Source of the DNA: Priestia megaterium | GTDB taxonomy: Bacteria; Bacillota; Bacilli; Bacillales; Bacillaceae_H | DNA: 64,000 nt | NCBI RefSeq assembly: GCF_009497655.1 | Contig: NZ_CP023317.1 | Location: 2,323,501 to 2,387,500 of the forward strand | Direction: 5' to 3' | Part shown: one piece after another, positions 5,736 to 38,262 of the stretch | Numbering within the stretch: position 1 is the first letter of the stretch | Layout: the number at the start of each line of letters is the position of its first letter | Position numbers and translations under genes: made by a program | Notes under the pieces: model-generated | Seen by the model: the letters and a program-made list of their open reading frames with translations, nothing else | Told to the model about the DNA's origin: nothing | The model's database searches: none

Positions 5736-5831
5736 ATGAAAGAAGTGAATATAAAGGATCCCGCATTAAACCTCGACGTGGCATTAAAAAGAATACTAAA
5801 TGAGATGGCTGAAAAAGATGTAACTTTATAA
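5736..5831 (+). CDS. Orphan 31-residue peptide
   Basis: An ATG seven bases after AAAGGAG opens a 31-codon frame, MKEVNIKDPALNLDV to AEKDVTL. It has a terminator before it (from the MFS gene) and one after it, so it looks like an independent small gene. The sequence is helix-prone and mixed in charge, with no signal peptide or membrane segment. I do not recognise it. It lies 0.3 kb upstream of the predicted dipeptide operon on the same strand; a functional link is only a possibility. Confidence 0.5.
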   Translation: MKEVNIKDPALNLDVALKRILNEMAEKDVTL

Positions 5832-5860
5832 ATGGTTAATATCTATTTTAATAAAAAAAT

Positions 5861-6066: not shown

Positions 6067-6096
6067 TTGACAAATATATGAAGCGATCATTAGAAT
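6067..6096 (+). promoter_or_regulatory. Sigma-A promoter of the dipeptide-like operon
   Basis: TTGACA (6067-6072), an 18-base spacer, and TAGAAT (6091-6096), 48 bases before the first start codon. The preceding 160 bases are AT-rich without another clear signal. Confidence 0.7.
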
Positions 6097-6143: not shown

Positions 6144-7406
6144 ATGCCGTTACAAAACAAGCATCTAGCAGTTGTGTTACAAAATACATATTTACCGTTT
6201 ATTTTTGAAGAAGCAGAAGCTCTCGGAATTAAAGTGACGTTTTTTTATAACCAAGAAGAAGTAGAACCTAAGCATCTTAAAAACGTACAAAATTTCATAC
6301 CCATTGATTTATTTCACACCTCAGACAAAGCTCTTGAGATTATTAAAGCAGAGCATCACAAAAATCCTTTTGACGGCATTATGACATTATATGAGCCTGC
6401 GTTAGAGTTTGTAGCTCAGCTGACAGAAAAATTAAACTTACCGGGCTTATCACCGTTTGTGATTAGTAACTGTCGCAACAAACAGAAAATGAGAGAGGTT
6501 TTAAAAGATAATGATCTTAACACTCCGTATTTTAAAGAGGTTGAAAATACGGAGGAATTAAAGAATCTTTCACTGCCTTATCCTGTCGTAGTAAAACCTT
6601 CTAACGGATTTTCCAGTCAAGGTGTATCACGAGCGAATAATAAAAAAGAACTGATTGACAGCATAGAAAAAGTGAGACGCGTAAATGAAGAAGACCTAAG
6701 TAAATTCACAAAAAATAAAACGGGCATGGTAATTGAACAATTTGTAGACGGACCAGAGTTTGCTATTGAGACGTTTTCTGTAGAAGGAGAGGTTTGTGTA
6801 CTCTCTATAGGATACAAAGGAAATTCCAAAGGGCCTTTTTTTGAAGAAGGTGTTTATATAGCGCCAGCTCACCTAGAAGAAAACGTTTGGGAATCTATTT
6901 CGCAAGAAGCAGCTAAAGCAGCAACCGCTTTAGGGATTGAGAATGGCCCCGCTCATATTGAATTACGTTTGGACCCAGCAGGAAAACCTTATGTGATTGA
7001 AATAGGAGCGCGCATTGGAGGGTCTGGGATTTCTCATTATATCGTAAAAGAAAGTACAGGTATTAACTATATCGAGCTAGTTTTTCACTATGTATTAGGA
7101 TTAAAACCTCCTGTATTAAAAAATGAAAGAAAACGAAAGAAAGTGGTGGGCAACTACATTATCCCTGTGCAAGGCCATGGGATTTTTAAAGAAATTCGAG
7201 GCTTGGAAGACGTGCGTAGAGACACTGAAGTAAAAAGGGTTATTCAATTTATAACTGAAGGGACAGACATTTTACCATATCCGCACTTTTCAGGTTACCC
7301 TGGATTTATTTTAACCACTCATGACTCTTATTCCGACTGTGAGCAGTATTACAGCTATTTGGATAACAAAGTAAAAATCGTTTATCAAAATAAAGTAAAT
7401 GCATAG
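6144..7406 (+). CDS. ATP-grasp amino-acid ligase, BacD-like
   Basis: A 420-residue ATP-grasp enzyme expected to join two amino acids, or an amino acid and an amine, through an acyl phosphate. Visible landmarks are the lysine-bearing strand YPVVVKPSNGFSSQGV (146-161), VIEQFVDGPEFAIE (196-209) and the metal/ATP segment GPAHIELRL plus YVIEIGARIGGSG (268-295). Length and layout match L-amino-acid ligases such as BacD (about 470 residues) and related carboxylate-amine ligases. Start follows AGGGGGGAAG. First gene of a five-gene unit; the neighbouring BacA-like gene supports a bacilysin-like role. Exact substrates are unknown. Confidence 0.75.
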   Translation: MPLQNKHLAVVLQNTYLPFIFEEAEALGIKVTFFYNQEEVEPKHLKNVQNFIPIDLFHTSDKALEIIKAEHHKNPFDGIMTLYEPALEFVAQLTEKLNLPGLSPFVISNCRNKQKMREVLKDNDLNTPYFKEVENTEELKNLSLPYPVVVKPSNGFSSQGVSRANNKKELIDSIEKVRRVNEEDLSKFTKNKTGMVIEQFVDGPEFAIETFSVEGEVCVLSIGYKGNSKGPFFEEGVYIAPAHLEENVWESISQEAAKAATALGIENGPAHIELRLDPAGKPYVIEIGARIGGSGISHYIVKESTGINYIELVFHYVLGLKPPVLKNERKRKKVVGNYIIPVQGHGIFKEIRGLEDVRRDTEVKRVIQFITEGTDILPYPHFSGYPGFILTTHDSYSDCEQYYSYLDNKVKIVYQNKVNA

Positions 7407-7421
7407 GGGGTATCAAAGGCT

Positions 7422-7982
7422 ATGATAGTTGCAGAGTCGTCTAGTAAGAAAAATAAGCAGCTTCAAAAGATTAGCATTATCCATACCTTAGGGCCTGAAG
7501 GAACAAATTGTGAAAAAGCAGGCTATCTGTGGTTTGAACGCCAAAGCATACAAGGTCAGGTCTTTTTACATCAAACGTTGGAAGAAGCTTTAGTTCATGT
7601 GAAAGAAACAGAGAGTTCTGCTCTACTAGGCTGTGCGGTATATCCTTACTTACATGATATTGTGTTCAAAAATTTAACTAGTTTAGAGCTAGTAGATAGC
7701 TTTATTATGCCAACGTATAACATGGTGCTTGCCTCAAAAGAAGAGGTGATAACAAACAACAACCTGTTAATTTCTTCACATCCTGCCCCTGTTGATTTAG
7801 CTCATTCCATCAGTTCCAATGTTCAGTTAGTAAATAGTAATGCTCAAGCCGCGATTGATTGCTTAGAAGGAAAGGTAGACGCATGTATTACAACAAGTAA
7901 AGCTGCTAACGAGCAGGGTTTAACAGTTGTAAAAGATTTTGGAGAAGTGCCGATGTGTTTTACGCTTCACGGAAGAAAATAG
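7422..7982 (+). CDS. BacA-like prephenate decarboxylase / prephenate dehydratase relative
   Basis: A 186-residue protein aligned by eye with remembered BacA of the bacilysin pathway (204 residues). Shared points are HTLGPEGTN at 21-29 (BacA: NTLGPEGTS), SHPAPVDL at 119-126 (SHPSPINL), VNSNAQAA at 137-144 (VNSTSQAA), and GLTVVKDFGEVPM at 166-178 (GLTFVKTFKSIPM). The Thr-Arg-Phe motif of true prephenate dehydratases is missing, as in BacA. BacA decarboxylates prephenate without aromatising it to give a dihydro-4-hydroxyphenylpyruvate. The same reaction here is inference. It follows the ligase gene by 15 bases. Confidence 0.7.
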   Translation: MIVAESSSKKNKQLQKISIIHTLGPEGTNCEKAGYLWFERQSIQGQVFLHQTLEEALVHVKETESSALLGCAVYPYLHDIVFKNLTSLELVDSFIMPTYNMVLASKEEVITNNNLLISSHPAPVDLAHSISSNVQLVNSNAQAAIDCLEGKVDACITTSKAANEQGLTVVKDFGEVPMCFTLHGRK

Positions 7983-8014
7983 GCTCAACTTTAAAAAAGA
8001 AATAAGGTGAAACA

Positions 8015-8953
8015 GTGATTTCTAAATTAACCCGTATTCATGTACATCTTTTGTTTTGTCTGTTAGCCGTCATCGGGGGAACGACATGGGCTTTTCAAAA
8101 GACTGGCTTAAAGGATAGCTTGCCTCTATGGTCAGCAGGTATGAGGTTTTTAATTGCTAGTTTAATAATTGCCCTCTACCTCTTACTCACAAAAAAAATG
8201 GCCATTTCAAAAGAAGTAGTAATTATTTCAGCATTAAACGGAATTTTGTACTTTGCTCTACCGTTTGGTTCTGTTTATTGGGCATCCGTCTATTTGCCAA
8301 GCGGGCTTGTTTCCGTTTTAGCTGCCAGCATTTCAGTGTTTGCTCTTTTATTTAATCGCTTATTTAAAGGAACACCAGCTACAAAAGGACAAAAGATAGG
8401 TGTAGTCATGTGCTTAATTGGTATGAGCGTTGTATTTGGAAATCAGCTGTTTATACAGGGAAATGTGATTCAAATAGTAGCCATGATTGTCATTTTAATG
8501 GCTATGCTAGGTTCTGCTTTTATAACTGTTCAAGTTCAATCTCGCATAAAATCCTTGCCTATTATGACCTTTAATTCCTTTTCGATGCTAAGTGGAGGCG
8601 CTTGTTTACTGATTGTTAGTTTATTTATAGAAAATGGAAACCGCACTTTCTCTGGGGTTAGTCTTATCTCATTATTATACTTGGCTATTATAGGATCGGT
8701 CTTGGGGTTTTCTATTAATATTTATTTATTAAAAAAATGGCATATATCAAAAGCAACGGCGCATCTATTTATTTCACCGGTTATCGCCTTATATGTAGGA
8801 TTTGTCTTTTTAGGTGAAACATTAAACAAACAGGTCTATATAGGTACAGCATTTGTAATAGCAGGGGTTATATTTATTAACTTGAAAAAGCAAGTAGAGA
8901 AAAACACAAATAACTCTACTCTTACATCATCTAAAAATATTTCTGCTAAGTAG
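8015..8953 (+). CDS. EamA/DMT-family transporter, probable product exporter
   Basis: A 312-residue ten-helix drug/metabolite transporter with two EamA repeats; the first begins LLFCLLAVIGGTTWAFQKTGL and the second ends IALYVGFVFLGETL before a basic tail. It begins with GTG behind AAGGTG. EamA proteins commonly export amino acids and related metabolites, and its place inside a biosynthetic operon suggests it exports the product and may confer self-protection. BacE of the bacilysin cluster, an MFS carrier, fills that role there. Confidence 0.75.
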   Translation: MISKLTRIHVHLLFCLLAVIGGTTWAFQKTGLKDSLPLWSAGMRFLIASLIIALYLLLTKKMAISKEVVIISALNGILYFALPFGSVYWASVYLPSGLVSVLAASISVFALLFNRLFKGTPATKGQKIGVVMCLIGMSVVFGNQLFIQGNVIQIVAMIVILMAMLGSAFITVQVQSRIKSLPIMTFNSFSMLSGGACLLIVSLFIENGNRTFSGVSLISLLYLAIIGSVLGFSINIYLLKKWHISKATAHLFISPVIALYVGFVFLGETLNKQVYIGTAFVIAGVIFINLKKQVEKNTNNSTLTSSKNISAK

Positions 8954-8981
8954 CTGCCCTAAAAAAAGGAGGGTTTTAATC

Positions 8982-10217
8982 ATGTTAACAAAAAATCATA
9001 CTCAAAGTTTAGTGGAGTTATTAAACGATAAAATAGTACCTGCTCTATATGAGATAAGAAAATATCAGGGCCCAAATGGAGAGGTCAAAAGAAATTACGA
9101 AAAAGCTAGAGAACTCTTATTAAAAGTAGTTGCTGAAACTGAAACAATATATAACTCTCTAAATTTACCTAAAGTGTGGAATGCATTAAAAAATGACGTA
9201 TGTGATTGGATCGAAAGAGGACTCGATCAATCTCCTTATTTTGATCAAACGTTAATTGCTTATAGCCCGCCTGCAAACGGAGAGGCGACGTTCTTTTTAG
9301 GACCGATTGTAACGCCTAATGGCCCTACCAAAAGAGGGTTTTATTTAGAAGCCTTTATCGCCGTTCGTGATGAACCTGAAATCATGAACTCCATTGAAGC
9401 AGACCTTCCTCATCCTAAAAATGGATGTGAATCGTTAAAGCTGTTGGCTGGTACTCAAGGATTTATGGAAGGGAAGTGTATTGTATTTTTCCCTGAGAAT
9501 GTACAAACAAAAGAAAAGGTAACAACTCAAAACTTCGCGATATTTTTCTTTAATAAATTTCACAGCATATACAATGATGATACATTAAAAAGAGCGTATT
9601 CTATCTTTCCTGATTTTAACTTTAAATCTCATACTATGAATAGAGAAGACACCTATCAGGCAAGGGTAATCTGGGGATATCTACATGACTATTATCATCA
9701 CTGTGGAAATAAACCTTTCGATCAACATATACAGGCAAAAATGAATTTTTTTGCAGGCATACTGGAAGAAGTTAAAGTAGACTGTCAGACGGTGCTGACT
9801 CTTCATAAAAGAAAATACCCTTTTTGGGAAGAGATAACAGAATTTGTTCTCTTTGAACGTCTGTTAAGGTATCCTAGTCAGCATAATGCACCTCGAAACT
9901 TTGATTCTGGCACAGGATTTTTTCTTTTTAGCTGGTTAGTTGCAAATGGGCATTCAATATCCCGAAAAGAAGACCATGCTTATTTAGATTTAGACATGTG
10001 TTTGAAGGAACTAGACCTTTTAGTAAAAGAAATTGAACAACTTGAAACAATTCAAAGTGACCTTGGCTATAAAGAAGAAGCCGAACGCTATGTTCGAAAA
10101 TACTTATTGCCTAGTGAGAACGGTGATAAATTTACTATTCCGGACAATTATTTTATTAATCAGCAAAATAAAAAGATTGAAGTTCCATACTTACTATTCG
10201 ATGACCATAATCTCTAA
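8982..10217 (+). CDS. Uncharacterised protein with an HDxxHH...EExKxD predicted metal site (DUF6421-like)
   Basis: A 411-residue cytosolic protein without signal peptide or membrane segments. From memory it most resembles the DUF6421 family, whose function is unknown. The notable feature is two short helices' worth of ligands: H235-D-Y-Y-H239-H240 and E262-E263-V-K-V-D267. This resembles the HExxxH plus EExR/KxE/D zinc site of M49 peptidases, with Asp replacing the catalytic Glu and a shorter gap. A metal-dependent hydrolase, isomerase or oxygenase step in the pathway is possible. Start follows AAAGGAGGG; the next gene starts 15 bases after its stop. Confidence 0.55.
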   Translation: MLTKNHTQSLVELLNDKIVPALYEIRKYQGPNGEVKRNYEKARELLLKVVAETETIYNSLNLPKVWNALKNDVCDWIERGLDQSPYFDQTLIAYSPPANGEATFFLGPIVTPNGPTKRGFYLEAFIAVRDEPEIMNSIEADLPHPKNGCESLKLLAGTQGFMEGKCIVFFPENVQTKEKVTTQNFAIFFFNKFHSIYNDDTLKRAYSIFPDFNFKSHTMNREDTYQARVIWGYLHDYYHHCGNKPFDQHIQAKMNFFAGILEEVKVDCQTVLTLHKRKYPFWEEITEFVLFERLLRYPSQHNAPRNFDSGTGFFLFSWLVANGHSISRKEDHAYLDLDMCLKELDLLVKEIEQLETIQSDLGYKEEAERYVRKYLLPSENGDKFTIPDNYFINQQNKKIEVPYLLFDDHNL

Positions 10218-10232
10218 GGAGAAGATGCACTA

Positions 10233-11534
10233 ATGAATGCTTTGCATTTAAGTAAAATAGGAAACAAAATGACTAATAAAGTAGGCGTTCGTGCTATTAT
10301 GCATGACATTCAAGAAGTGCTCAATTCTGATCTCAATCAATATGTGAATTTAAGCGCTGGAAATCCTGCCATACTCCCTCAAGTTTATGAAATGTGGGAA
10401 GAAGCTTTAAAAGATATTGTGAACGACAAACAACTAAAGAATTTGATTAGCCAATATGGGTCTAGTTACGGTACGTATGAATTAATTGATTGCATAAGAG
10501 AATACTTCTTTAGGAATTATCGTATTGAGCTGGACAGAGAACAAGTCTTGATCACTTCAGGAAGTCAAAATCTGTTTTTTTTAGCTATAAATTCATTTTG
10601 CGGTACAAGTAAAGAAGGAAGAGTTAAAAAAGCATTAATACCTATGCTGCCGGATTACGCTGGGTACAGCGGAGTGGCACTAGAGGAAGCTATAATAGAA
10701 GGAATTCCTCCTATCGTCTCAAAGCTTGATCATCATACGTTTCGTTATGAATTTAACAAACAGGCATTCAAAGATAAAATAGCACAGGACCCAGATATCG
10801 GAGCTGTCGTATTATCAAGACCTAATAATCCAAGCGGCAACATTCTTTCAAAAGAAGCCGTACACTTTATATCCCAAGTATGCAAGGACTATAACATTCC
10901 ATTGCTAATTGATTCAGCGTACGCACCTCCTTTTCCGGCTATGAACTTTGTTGAAATGAATCCAATTATACATGACAACATCATTCACTGCATGAGTCTT
11001 TCTAAAGCCGGATTGCCTGGAGAGAGAATAGGAATTGCTATAGGAAAAAGTGACTTCATAAAAGTAATGGAAGCATTTCAATCAAATATTTTGATTCACT
11101 CTTCTAGGTTAGGTCAGCGGATGGTGGTTAACACCTTAAAGAACGGAAAGTTACCTGGAATTTCAGCTAACTATATAAGAACTCATTATAAACAAAAACA
11201 TGACTATTTAAAAAATCTTTTAACTACACATATGCCGGATGATATTCCTTGGTATTTACATAAAGCGGAAGGTTCGTTGTTTGGTTGGCTTTGGTTAGAA
11301 GGTTTGACTTTCAGTGATAACGATCTATACAATAAATTAAAAGCAGAAAACTTGATTGTAGTACCAGGCGGATCATTCTTTCACGGCAACCGGTCTTGTC
11401 CTCACAACCAGGAGTGCATTCGCATAAGTCTTACTGCTACAGATGAGGAGTTAAAGAAAGGAATTGATATTCTTTCGTCAGTAGTCAAGAAAGTATACAG
11501 TTCAGATTTTATATGTGAAACAGAAAAAATCTAA
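10233..11534 (+). CDS. AvtA-like PLP-dependent aminotransferase
   Basis: A 433-residue fold-type I aminotransferase similar along its length to remembered E. coli AvtA (valine-pyruvate aminotransferase): IGNKMTNKVGV, SAGNPAILPQVYEMW, YGSSYGTYELID, LSRPNNPSGNIL, LIDSAYAPPFPAM, the PLP-lysine segment CMSLSKAGLPGERIG, and CIRISLTA near the end. It is the last gene of the five-gene unit and is followed by a strong terminator. In this setting it probably aminates the keto acid made by the BacA-like enzyme, the job BacF does in bacilysin synthesis. Ordinary AvtA function cannot be excluded. Confidence 0.8.
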   Translation: MNALHLSKIGNKMTNKVGVRAIMHDIQEVLNSDLNQYVNLSAGNPAILPQVYEMWEEALKDIVNDKQLKNLISQYGSSYGTYELIDCIREYFFRNYRIELDREQVLITSGSQNLFFLAINSFCGTSKEGRVKKALIPMLPDYAGYSGVALEEAIIEGIPPIVSKLDHHTFRYEFNKQAFKDKIAQDPDIGAVVLSRPNNPSGNILSKEAVHFISQVCKDYNIPLLIDSAYAPPFPAMNFVEMNPIIHDNIIHCMSLSKAGLPGERIGIAIGKSDFIKVMEAFQSNILIHSSRLGQRMVVNTLKNGKLPGISANYIRTHYKQKHDYLKNLLTTHMPDDIPWYLHKAEGSLFGWLWLEGLTFSDNDLYNKLKAENLIVVPGGSFFHGNRSCPHNQECIRISLTATDEELKKGIDILSSVVKKVYSSDFICETEKI

Positions 11535-11555: not shown

Positions 11556-11591
11556 AAAAAAGCCGACCTGGTTGCTAGGGTCGGCTTTTTT
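11556..11591. terminator. Shared terminator between convergent units
   Basis: AAAAAAGCCGACC pairs with GGTCGGCTTTTTT around a 10-base loop. The A-run and T-run make it usable by the operon on the plus strand and by the ferredoxin-like gene on the minus strand. Confidence 0.8.
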
Positions 11592-16071: not shown

Positions 16072-16096
16072 GTAGAAAAAATGAATATACAAGCAT

Positions 16097-16339
16097 TGAA
16101 AAGGACATGAATCATTTTTGGATTTTCTTTACAGAGAGTAGGGTCACTGGCTGAGAACCCTTAGAAAACGAAATGAATTTACCACCTTGGAGCTGCGGCG
16201 GGGAATGTGTATACACTGAAACTGCAACCGGTAAAACCGTTATCTTTTTAAGCGTAAAATACGTATAGGTATTTTACGGAATTAGGGTGGTACCACGGCC
16301 GCATTCGTCCCTTTATTAGGGATGAGTGCGGTTTTTTTG
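16097..16339 (+). ncRNA. T-box riboswitch 2 (threonine specifier ACC)
   Basis: A second complete T-box in tandem, about 80% alike to the first by eye. It has the AGAGAGTAGGG loop, the AATTTACCACC segment with ACC at 16181-16183, T-box AGGGTGGTACCACG at 16284-16297, and its own terminator with the same CCGCATTCGTCCCT arm and a T7 tail. Both must read through for the downstream gene to be expressed, which makes the response to threonine starvation steeper. Confidence 0.88.
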
Positions 16340-16368
16340 TTGAATAAAAACATATTGGAGGAATGAAC

Positions 16369-17586
16369 ATGTCAAAACAAATGGAAGCAGAAAAACGAAA
16401 TCATCAAAAATTAGGTCAAGAACTGGAGCTGTTTATGTCGATGGAAGAAGCTCCTGGTATGCCGTTTTTCTTACCTAACGGAATGATTGTTCGAAATGAG
16501 TTAGAAAACTACTGGAAACAAAAGCATTACAAAGCAGGCTATCAAGAGATAAAAACACCCATCATGATGAAACAGGAGCTATGGGAACAATCAGGGCATT
16601 GGGAGCACTATCATGAAAATATGTATTTTTCAAATGTTGACAAACAAAACTATGCGATTAAACCGATGAATTGTCCGGGAGCCATTTTATTGTTTAACAG
16701 CAAGCGAAGAAGCTACCGAGAACTTCCAGTTCGATACGCGGAGCTCGGGTTAGTTCATCGCCACGAGCTTTCTGGCTCTTTAAACGGATTACTAAGAGTT
16801 CGGTCATTCACACAGGACGACGCTCATTTATTCGTAGAACCCAGTCAGATCGAAGCTGAGATTAGCCGCATTCTAGCGTTTATCCATGACTTTTATTCAC
16901 ATTTTGGCTTTGATTACAAAGTGGAGCTATCCACACGTCCTGAAAAATTTATGGGAGATATTGAAACATGGAATCAAGCAGAAAAGTCGCTTCAATCGGT
17001 GCTAAATGAAAAAGGCTTAGACTATCAGGTAAATGAAGGAGACGGAGCTTTTTACGGGCCGAAAATCGATTTTCATATTTTAGATTCCCTAGGCCGCAGC
17101 TGGCAGTGCGGAACAGTTCAGCTTGATTTTCTAATGCCAGAGAAGTTTGACTGTATGTATATTGGAGAGGACAATAAACCGCACCGTCCCGTAATGATTC
17201 ACCGCGCTATATACGGTTCCGTTGAACGATTTATGGCCATCTTGATTGAACATTATGAAGGTCAATTTCCTCTTTGGCTGGCTCCTGTTCAATTTAAGCT
17301 TTTGCCTATTGCACCGCCGCATGTGGAATATGCATACAAGGTGAAACACGAGCTGGAGTCACAAGGGTATCGTGTTGAAGTGGATGATCGTATTGAAAAA
17401 ATAGGTCTGAAAATTAGAGAAGCCGAAATGCTCAAAGTTCCTTATATGGCCGTAATAGGAGATAAAGAAGTAGAAAATAAATCGCTTGCTATGCGAAAGC
17501 ATGGGAAGAAAAACATTGGAACAGTAAGTGTTGAAGAGGCAGCTGTACACTTGAATAAAGAAATGGATTCAAACAGAGTTTATTGA
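16369..17586 (+). CDS. Threonyl-tRNA synthetase lacking TGS and editing domains
   Basis: A 405-residue ThrRS that starts directly at the catalytic core; ordinary bacterial ThrRS is about 640 residues with TGS and N2 editing domains in front. The core is intact: zinc/threonine ligands C102 (MNCPG), H153 (DDAHLF) and H278 (MIHRAI) keep the E. coli spacing (51 and about 125 residues). Motif 2 ArgHisGlu is at 131-133, motif 3 is AIYGSVERF, and the C-terminal anticodon-binding domain starts near 302 (LWLAPVQFKLLPI). The ATG at 16369 lies 7 bases after GGAGG; the ATG at 16363 is too close. Without N2 it cannot clear Ser-tRNA-Thr itself. Two T-boxes control it. Confidence 0.88.
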   Translation: MSKQMEAEKRNHQKLGQELELFMSMEEAPGMPFFLPNGMIVRNELENYWKQKHYKAGYQEIKTPIMMKQELWEQSGHWEHYHENMYFSNVDKQNYAIKPMNCPGAILLFNSKRRSYRELPVRYAELGLVHRHELSGSLNGLLRVRSFTQDDAHLFVEPSQIEAEISRILAFIHDFYSHFGFDYKVELSTRPEKFMGDIETWNQAEKSLQSVLNEKGLDYQVNEGDGAFYGPKIDFHILDSLGRSWQCGTVQLDFLMPEKFDCMYIGEDNKPHRPVMIHRAIYGSVERFMAILIEHYEGQFPLWLAPVQFKLLPIAPPHVEYAYKVKHELESQGYRVEVDDRIEKIGLKIREAEMLKVPYMAVIGDKEVENKSLAMRKHGKKNIGTVSVEEAAVHLNKEMDSNRVY

Positions 17587-38136: not shown

Positions 38137-38150
38137 ATACTTAATTTCAA

Positions 38151-38262
38151 AGACTATATGTGACTGGCGAAACGCGGATAACCGTGAGGAAGCATATAGT
38201 GACGTAGCCGTTCGCCTGGGCAGAGGTAAGGGATTAATACATATCTCTTACCTCTTTCTGTT
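38151..38262 (+). ncRNA. ZTP (pfl) riboswitch
   Basis: P1 stem ACTATATG (38153-38160) pairs with CATATAGT (38193-38200). Inside are the conserved GACTGGCG and ACCGTGAGGAAGC-type elements, followed by CCGTTCGCCTGGGCA at 38208-38222, whose CGCC forms the pseudoknot. An overlapping terminator (AGAGGTAAGG with its complement to 38255, then a mixed T tract) completes it. ZTP signals low 10-formyl-THF; such riboswitches turn on folate, purine and one-carbon genes, here serA. Confidence 0.88.

Follow-up and report, generated by a model that had tools for sequence, protein, structure and literature searches.

A predicted iron/pterin-dependent amino acid oxidase of the DUF6421 family in a conserved, prephenate dehydratase-linked operon of Priestia megaterium

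Genomic Context of the DUF6421 Gene

The stretch of DNA analyzed here (the window) comprises 64,000 nt of the Priestia megaterium assembly GCF_009497655.1 (contig NZ_CP023317.1, forward strand, positions 2,323,501–2,387,500). An open reading frame at nt. 8982–10217 of the window (+ strand), with an ATG start preceded by the sequence aaaggaggg, encodes a DUF6421 protein of 411 a.a. and is the fourth of five plus-strand genes separated by gaps of only 15–32 bp. The first gene (nt. 6144–7406, +) encodes an ATP-grasp L-amino acid ligase of the dipeptide ligase type, with the Pfam domains ATPgrasp_N, ATP-grasp_4, and LAL_C2 all above their cut-offs; against the model of the bacilysin ligase BacD it reached 42 bits (cut-off 850), so it is not BacD itself. 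It is followed by a prephenate dehydratase-like (PDT-like) gene (nt. 7422–7982, +), related to BacA and TdaC and lacking both an ACT domain and the TRF motif, and by an EamA-family exporter with a GTG start (nt. 8015–8953, +; Pfam EamA, 127 bits). The last gene (nt. 10233–11534, +) encodes a class I aminotransferase of the AvtA/valine-pyruvate transaminase type (NF006967, 652.7 bits against a cut-off of 402).

A likely operon promoter, identified by a consensus scan and resting on that match (TTGACA-N18-TAGAAT, 11/12 positions), lies at nt. 6067–6096 (+), and an intrinsic terminator with a 14-pair stem and a T-rich tail closes the operon at nt. 11556–11591 (+). The ~240 bp ahead of the first gene are near-identical to the corresponding region in Priestia aryabhattai (locus L008), while the DNA farther upstream is not. 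A short frame at nt. 5737–5832 was considered as a leader peptide and rejected, given it is not conserved in P. aryabhattai. Within the genus, half of the genomes (5/10) carry the DUF6421 gene, indicating that the operon is accessory.

The Predicted Metal Site and Its Relation to PolE

The protein matched the Pfam family DUF6421 (PF19985) over residues 21–355 with 73.3 bits (cut-off 25, E 2e-20), confirming the family label given in the original prediction. That prediction had also proposed an HDxxxH/EExKxD two-part site, with Asp in place of a catalytic Glu, in the segments W231-G-Y-L-H235-D-Y-Y-H239-H240-C-G and G259-I-L-E262-E263-V-K265-V-D267. The residues are real and correctly placed. 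When the window protein was aligned with 44 relatives (n = 45, identity down to 32%) from Bacillota, Pseudomonadota, Actinomycetota, and Cyanobacteriota, the residues H235, H239, E262, E263, and D267 were each invariant (45/45), position 236 was Asp in 44 sequences and Glu in one, and position 265 was Lys in all but one sequence, which has Arg, with the pattern H[DE]xxH-x23-E fitting every sequence. Position 240 proved variable (His in 35/45, Tyr in nine, Phe in one), so the conserved pair is H235/H239 and the first element is the pentapeptide HDxxH, not the hexapeptide HDxxxH. As the site residues proper do not vary across the 45 sequences, the motif is not a chance occurrence, and a conserved, putative two-part metal site is well supported by the alignment. 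In the AlphaFold model (mean pLDDT 95.1), used here for helix placement only, H235 and H239 lie on one helix (residues 221–239) and E262–D267 on another (residues 256–277).

The only sequence matches in the PDB were PolE proteins (phmmer E 6e-14; family profile E 2e-26), and the AlphaFold model aligned with PolE 9j3g at a Z-score of 32.2 (3.8 Å over 360 residues); sequence identity to PolE is ~18%, with the match confined to residues 151–360. The predicted iron ligands H235 and H239 belong to HDYYH (residues 235–239, nt. 9684–9698, +), which aligns with the HExxH motif of PolE. Counted on the alignment, the step from H206 to E230 in PolE spans 24 residues, the same as that from H239 to E263, suggesting that E263 (equivalent to PolE Glu230), and not E262, is the likely third ligand within EEVKVD (residues 262–267, nt. 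9765–9782, +).

PolE is a DUF6421 Fe/tetrahydrobiopterin L-Ile desaturase (Du et al., Nat Chem 2025, PMC12614342). In that study, PolE activity is strictly dependent on Fe2+, O2, and tetrahydrobiopterin, an HE/DxxHx21–23E motif is common to the DUF6421 family, soluble PolE mutants in this motif are inactive, and many DUF6421 genes adjoin amino-acid-modifying genes; its passages on DUF6421 neighbors do not name a PDT-linked operon. The P. megaterium protein shares with PolE of polyoxin biosynthesis (SnPolE 9J2E, SmPolE 9J3G) the Pfam family, the fold, the H[D/E]xxHx23E site, the EE-x-K/R-x-D element, the FPEN and NKF motifs, and a location among amino-acid tailoring genes. It differs in its gene partner, which is PDT-like here rather than PolF, and in two of three residues mutated by the PolE crystallographers (F140, Y157, and Y280). 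While the counterpart of F140 is kept as F170, both Y157 and Y280 correspond to Phe residues invariant in the 45 sequences (F188 and F307), and substrate or pterin contacts may thus differ from those in PolE. These two replacements sit less easily with a PolE-type function, as does the absence from the genome of pterin-4a-carbinolamine dehydratase (PF01329), which bears on how a pterin would be recycled.

We conclude that the product of nt. 8982–10217 is a PolE relative that most likely oxidizes an amino acid by Fe/pterin-type chemistry, with the predicted cofactor and reaction type carried over from PolE at ~18% identity. The proposal that a metalloenzyme modifies an amino acid within a peptide-building operon is supported. 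The proposed novelty of the enzyme does not hold, given PolE was published in 2025 and the class is not wholly new. Fe/pterin chemistry in the DUF6421 family has so far been based on this one published enzyme.

Conservation and Gene Linkage

A scan of bacterial genomes yielded 56 loci with DUF6421 relatives, 44 of which entered the alignment above, and linkage was assessed over 60 loci found by similarity to the protein's own clade, such that the counts describe this clade and not all DUF6421 proteins. At 59 of the 60 loci, a same-strand PDT-like gene lay no more than 8 kb away; the remaining locus is on a contig of 3.3 kb. An aminotransferase (class I or class IV) was present at 43 loci and an ATP-grasp gene at 28, with some loci having no ligase or no aminotransferase. 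In plasmid records, all five DUF6421 hits at 38–46% identity were accompanied by a PDT-like gene, which was not seen beside the four more distant plasmid hits examined (24–30% identity). Pairwise distances of the DUF6421 and PDT-like proteins were strongly correlated across 55 loci (r = 0.94; 0/999 permutations), a value to which shared vertical descent contributes. Within a sample of 398 Bacillota, DUF6421 occurred in the P. megaterium genome of the window only, so this sample affords no statistics, and a single-protein query with the DUF6421 protein found no viral relatives.

In Actinomycetota, the same five functions recur in the order PDT-DUF6421-EamA-ligase-BCAT. Pantoea and Marinobacter carry the Bacillus-like gene set minus the aminotransferase, which suggests acquisition by horizontal transfer. 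Pantoea sp. X85 and P. endophytica (L006, L041) each have a DUF6421 frame broken into two parts, which may reflect operon decay or sequencing error; the frame is intact in Pantoea sp. SS70. In Boseongicola (L052, nt. 8965–10695), DUF6421 is naturally fused to a SnoaL/NTF2-like protein, which is encoded by a separate neighboring gene in Streptomyces, Stappia, and Serpentinimonas. An apparent PDT-DUF6421 fusion in Paracidovorax anthurii (L026) was rejected, since in an alignment with P. konjaci the end of this PDT-like gene differs in length by one base.

Our search of the open-access literature found no described operon of the PDT-DUF6421 kind and, as far as that literature shows, this conserved operon is apparently undescribed. 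It offers a compact and culturable system (Priestia, the Bacillus licheniformis group, Pantoea, and Streptomyces) in which the reach of the chemistry and its substrate could be tested.

The Prephenate Dehydratase-Like Protein

The PDT-like protein scored weakly, below the cut-off, against the Pfam prephenate dehydratase family; its structural model (pLDDT 90) found prephenate dehydratases as the best PDB matches (Z 14.4). In profile comparison (hhalign), BacA of bac operons was a far closer match (E 2e-17) than the PheA encoded in the P. megaterium genome (E 0.017). At the position of TRF, the catalytic motif of prephenate dehydratase, it has M-C-F, where BacA has M-S-W. Identity to BacA is 26–28%, whereas TdaC, from the tropodithietic acid cluster, is ~40–44% identical and is the protein's closest named relative. 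The protein shares the motifs of Phaeobacter TdaC, including VPMxFTxHG, although TdaC sits in a tda cluster without DUF6421. TdaC has been proposed to supply phenylpyruvate (PMC7497051), a role which is unsettled, and it is absent from a Janthinobacterium strain still making tropodithietic acid (PMC13163973). Given the likeness to BacA and the loss of TRF on the one hand, and the unsettled role of TdaC on the other, the protein may be either a non-aromatizing decarboxylase or a dedicated source of phenylpyruvate. Its constant pairing with DUF6421 opens a route to the function of TdaC.

Two clusters join a PDT-like gene with DAHP synthase, which points to prephenate as the source. The Pseudoalteromonas cluster ends with a DAHP synthase/chorismate mutase, and in Proteus, where DUF6421 is absent, a class II DAHP synthase follows the PDT-like gene. 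The latter cluster, in Proteus mirabilis H63 (L076, nt. 7262–10451), comprises RraA-like, PDT-like (TdaC/BacA type), cupin, and class II DAHP synthase genes and probably represents another pathway starting from prephenate. Separately, three loci (L080, L081, and L082) have short proteins of the PDT-like type (IHTLGPEETDS...) encoded within shikimate operons of the same order, adjoining aroC-, aroA-, tyrA-, and aroK-looking genes; their TRF site is too divergent for obvious dehydratases.

Proposed Pathway and Alternative Readings

Taken together with its neighbors, the operon probably makes an unusual amino acid from prephenate and incorporates it into a small peptide for export. By analogy with PolE, we consider it likely that the DUF6421 protein is a mononuclear non-heme Fe/pterin oxidase of the PolE family, acting on a prephenate-derived amino acid in a dipeptide operon. 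H235, H239, and E263 would coordinate Fe(II) within a fold also found in dipeptidyl peptidase III (DPP III), and tetrahydropterin and O2 would generate an Fe(IV)-oxo species able to desaturate (by removal of hydrogen), hydroxylate, or epoxidize a free amino acid at its side chain. In the putative pathway, prephenate would become a 2-oxo acid through the PDT-like protein and then an amino acid through the aminotransferase; the DUF6421 enzyme would oxidize this amino acid, the ATP-grasp ligase would couple the oxidized product with another amino acid, and the resulting dipeptide would leave the cell through the EamA protein. We infer the substrate and product from the neighboring genes, and the cofactor within this clade, the order of steps, and the dipeptide nature of the product are likewise predicted.

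The bacilysin pathway (BacA-G) is among the closest known parallels to this scheme, with a TRF-less prephenate-type entry protein, an aminotransferase, an ATP-grasp ligase, and an exporter. The operon differs in having no BacB, BacC, or BacG, in the addition of DUF6421, and in an EamA exporter instead of one of the MFS type, and both its ligase and its PDT-like protein are only distantly related to their bacilysin counterparts. No cupin or SDR gene was found in the operon by inspection of its open reading frames and Pfam matches. The bacilysin operon itself was rejected as an identity given the missing BacB/C/G and the low BacD score noted above. A more specific scheme, which we put forward tentatively and regard as somewhat doubtful, is that this widespread PDT-linked clade uses Fe/pterin oxidation (epoxidation, hydroxylation, or desaturation) of a non-aromatic cyclohexadienyl amino acid derived from prephenate to form an anticapsin-like warhead, exported as a dipeptide. 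If true, this would constitute a bacilysin-like antibiotic pathway with different oxidation chemistry; more generally, a prephenate-derived dipeptide product may be an antimetabolite antibiotic of common soil and fermentation bacteria.

An alternative keeps the oxidase class and assigns it a branched-chain substrate, desaturated as by PolE, with some other role for the PDT-like protein. PolE acts on L-Ile (PMC12614342), and the AvtA-type and BCAT-type aminotransferases are of branched-chain types; however, the near-complete linkage (59/60) and co-inheritance (r = 0.94) with a PDT/BacA-type protein, the DAHP synthase genes in two clusters carrying the PDT-like gene, and the replacement of both Y157 and Y280 by Phe make this reading unlikely.

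It is improbable that the metal site instead employs another co-substrate, such as 2-oxoglutarate, folate, or a flavin reductase, in place of pterin. Such a co-substrate would fit a genome in which pterin-4a-carbinolamine dehydratase (PF01329) was not found, the invariant Arg residues R129, R293, and R296 of the 45-sequence alignment, and the existence of HExxH/2-oxoglutarate enzymes (cited in PMC12614342), but that study describes PolE as strictly BH4-dependent and its model as having no 2-oxoglutarate site, and the fold and motif found here agree with PolE.

The original prediction had likened the site to that of M49 zincins. The AlphaFold model does match DPP III (M49) structures (Z 10–19.5, the highest with 6eom), more weakly than PolE, and the likeness extends to the overall scaffold, the two-helix metal site, and the EExR/KxE/D element (here E262-E263-x-K265-x-D267). 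DPP III proteins have 524–725 residues with the second motif ~50 residues on, whereas the window protein has 411 residues and a 24-residue step, HDxxH in place of HExxxH, and no catalytic Glu. The DUF6421 fold is described in PMC12614342 as resembling DPP III without its HExxGH motif and catalytic His. The zincin analogy is right for the fold only, and membership of the M49 zincins was rejected, given the lost HExxxH and the closer match to PolE (Z 32 versus 19.5). That the site holds Zn and hydrolyzes a peptide precursor or product, as had been entertained for a precursor, is therefore very improbable despite the fold match and the kept EExKxD element, given the absent HExxxH, an Asp for the catalytic Glu in 44/45 sequences, a catalytic His reported as not conserved in DUF6421 (PMC12614342), and nearest relatives by both sequence and fold that are Fe/pterin oxidases. 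A PolE-type oxidase acting on a prephenate-derived amino acid thus remains our preferred reading.

Other Features in the Window

Downstream of the operon, nt. 16087–17586 contain a T-box leader (RF00230, 96.6 bits) ahead of a threonyl-tRNA synthetase-like gene, the 407-residue product of which has catalytic and anticodon-binding domains only. A longer paralogue elsewhere in the genome is 48% identical (702-residue frame); the shorter enzyme, which lacks the N-terminal editing part, could be a second ThrRS for resistance or stress. Finally, a ZTP riboswitch (58 bits) lies at nt. 38150–38228.
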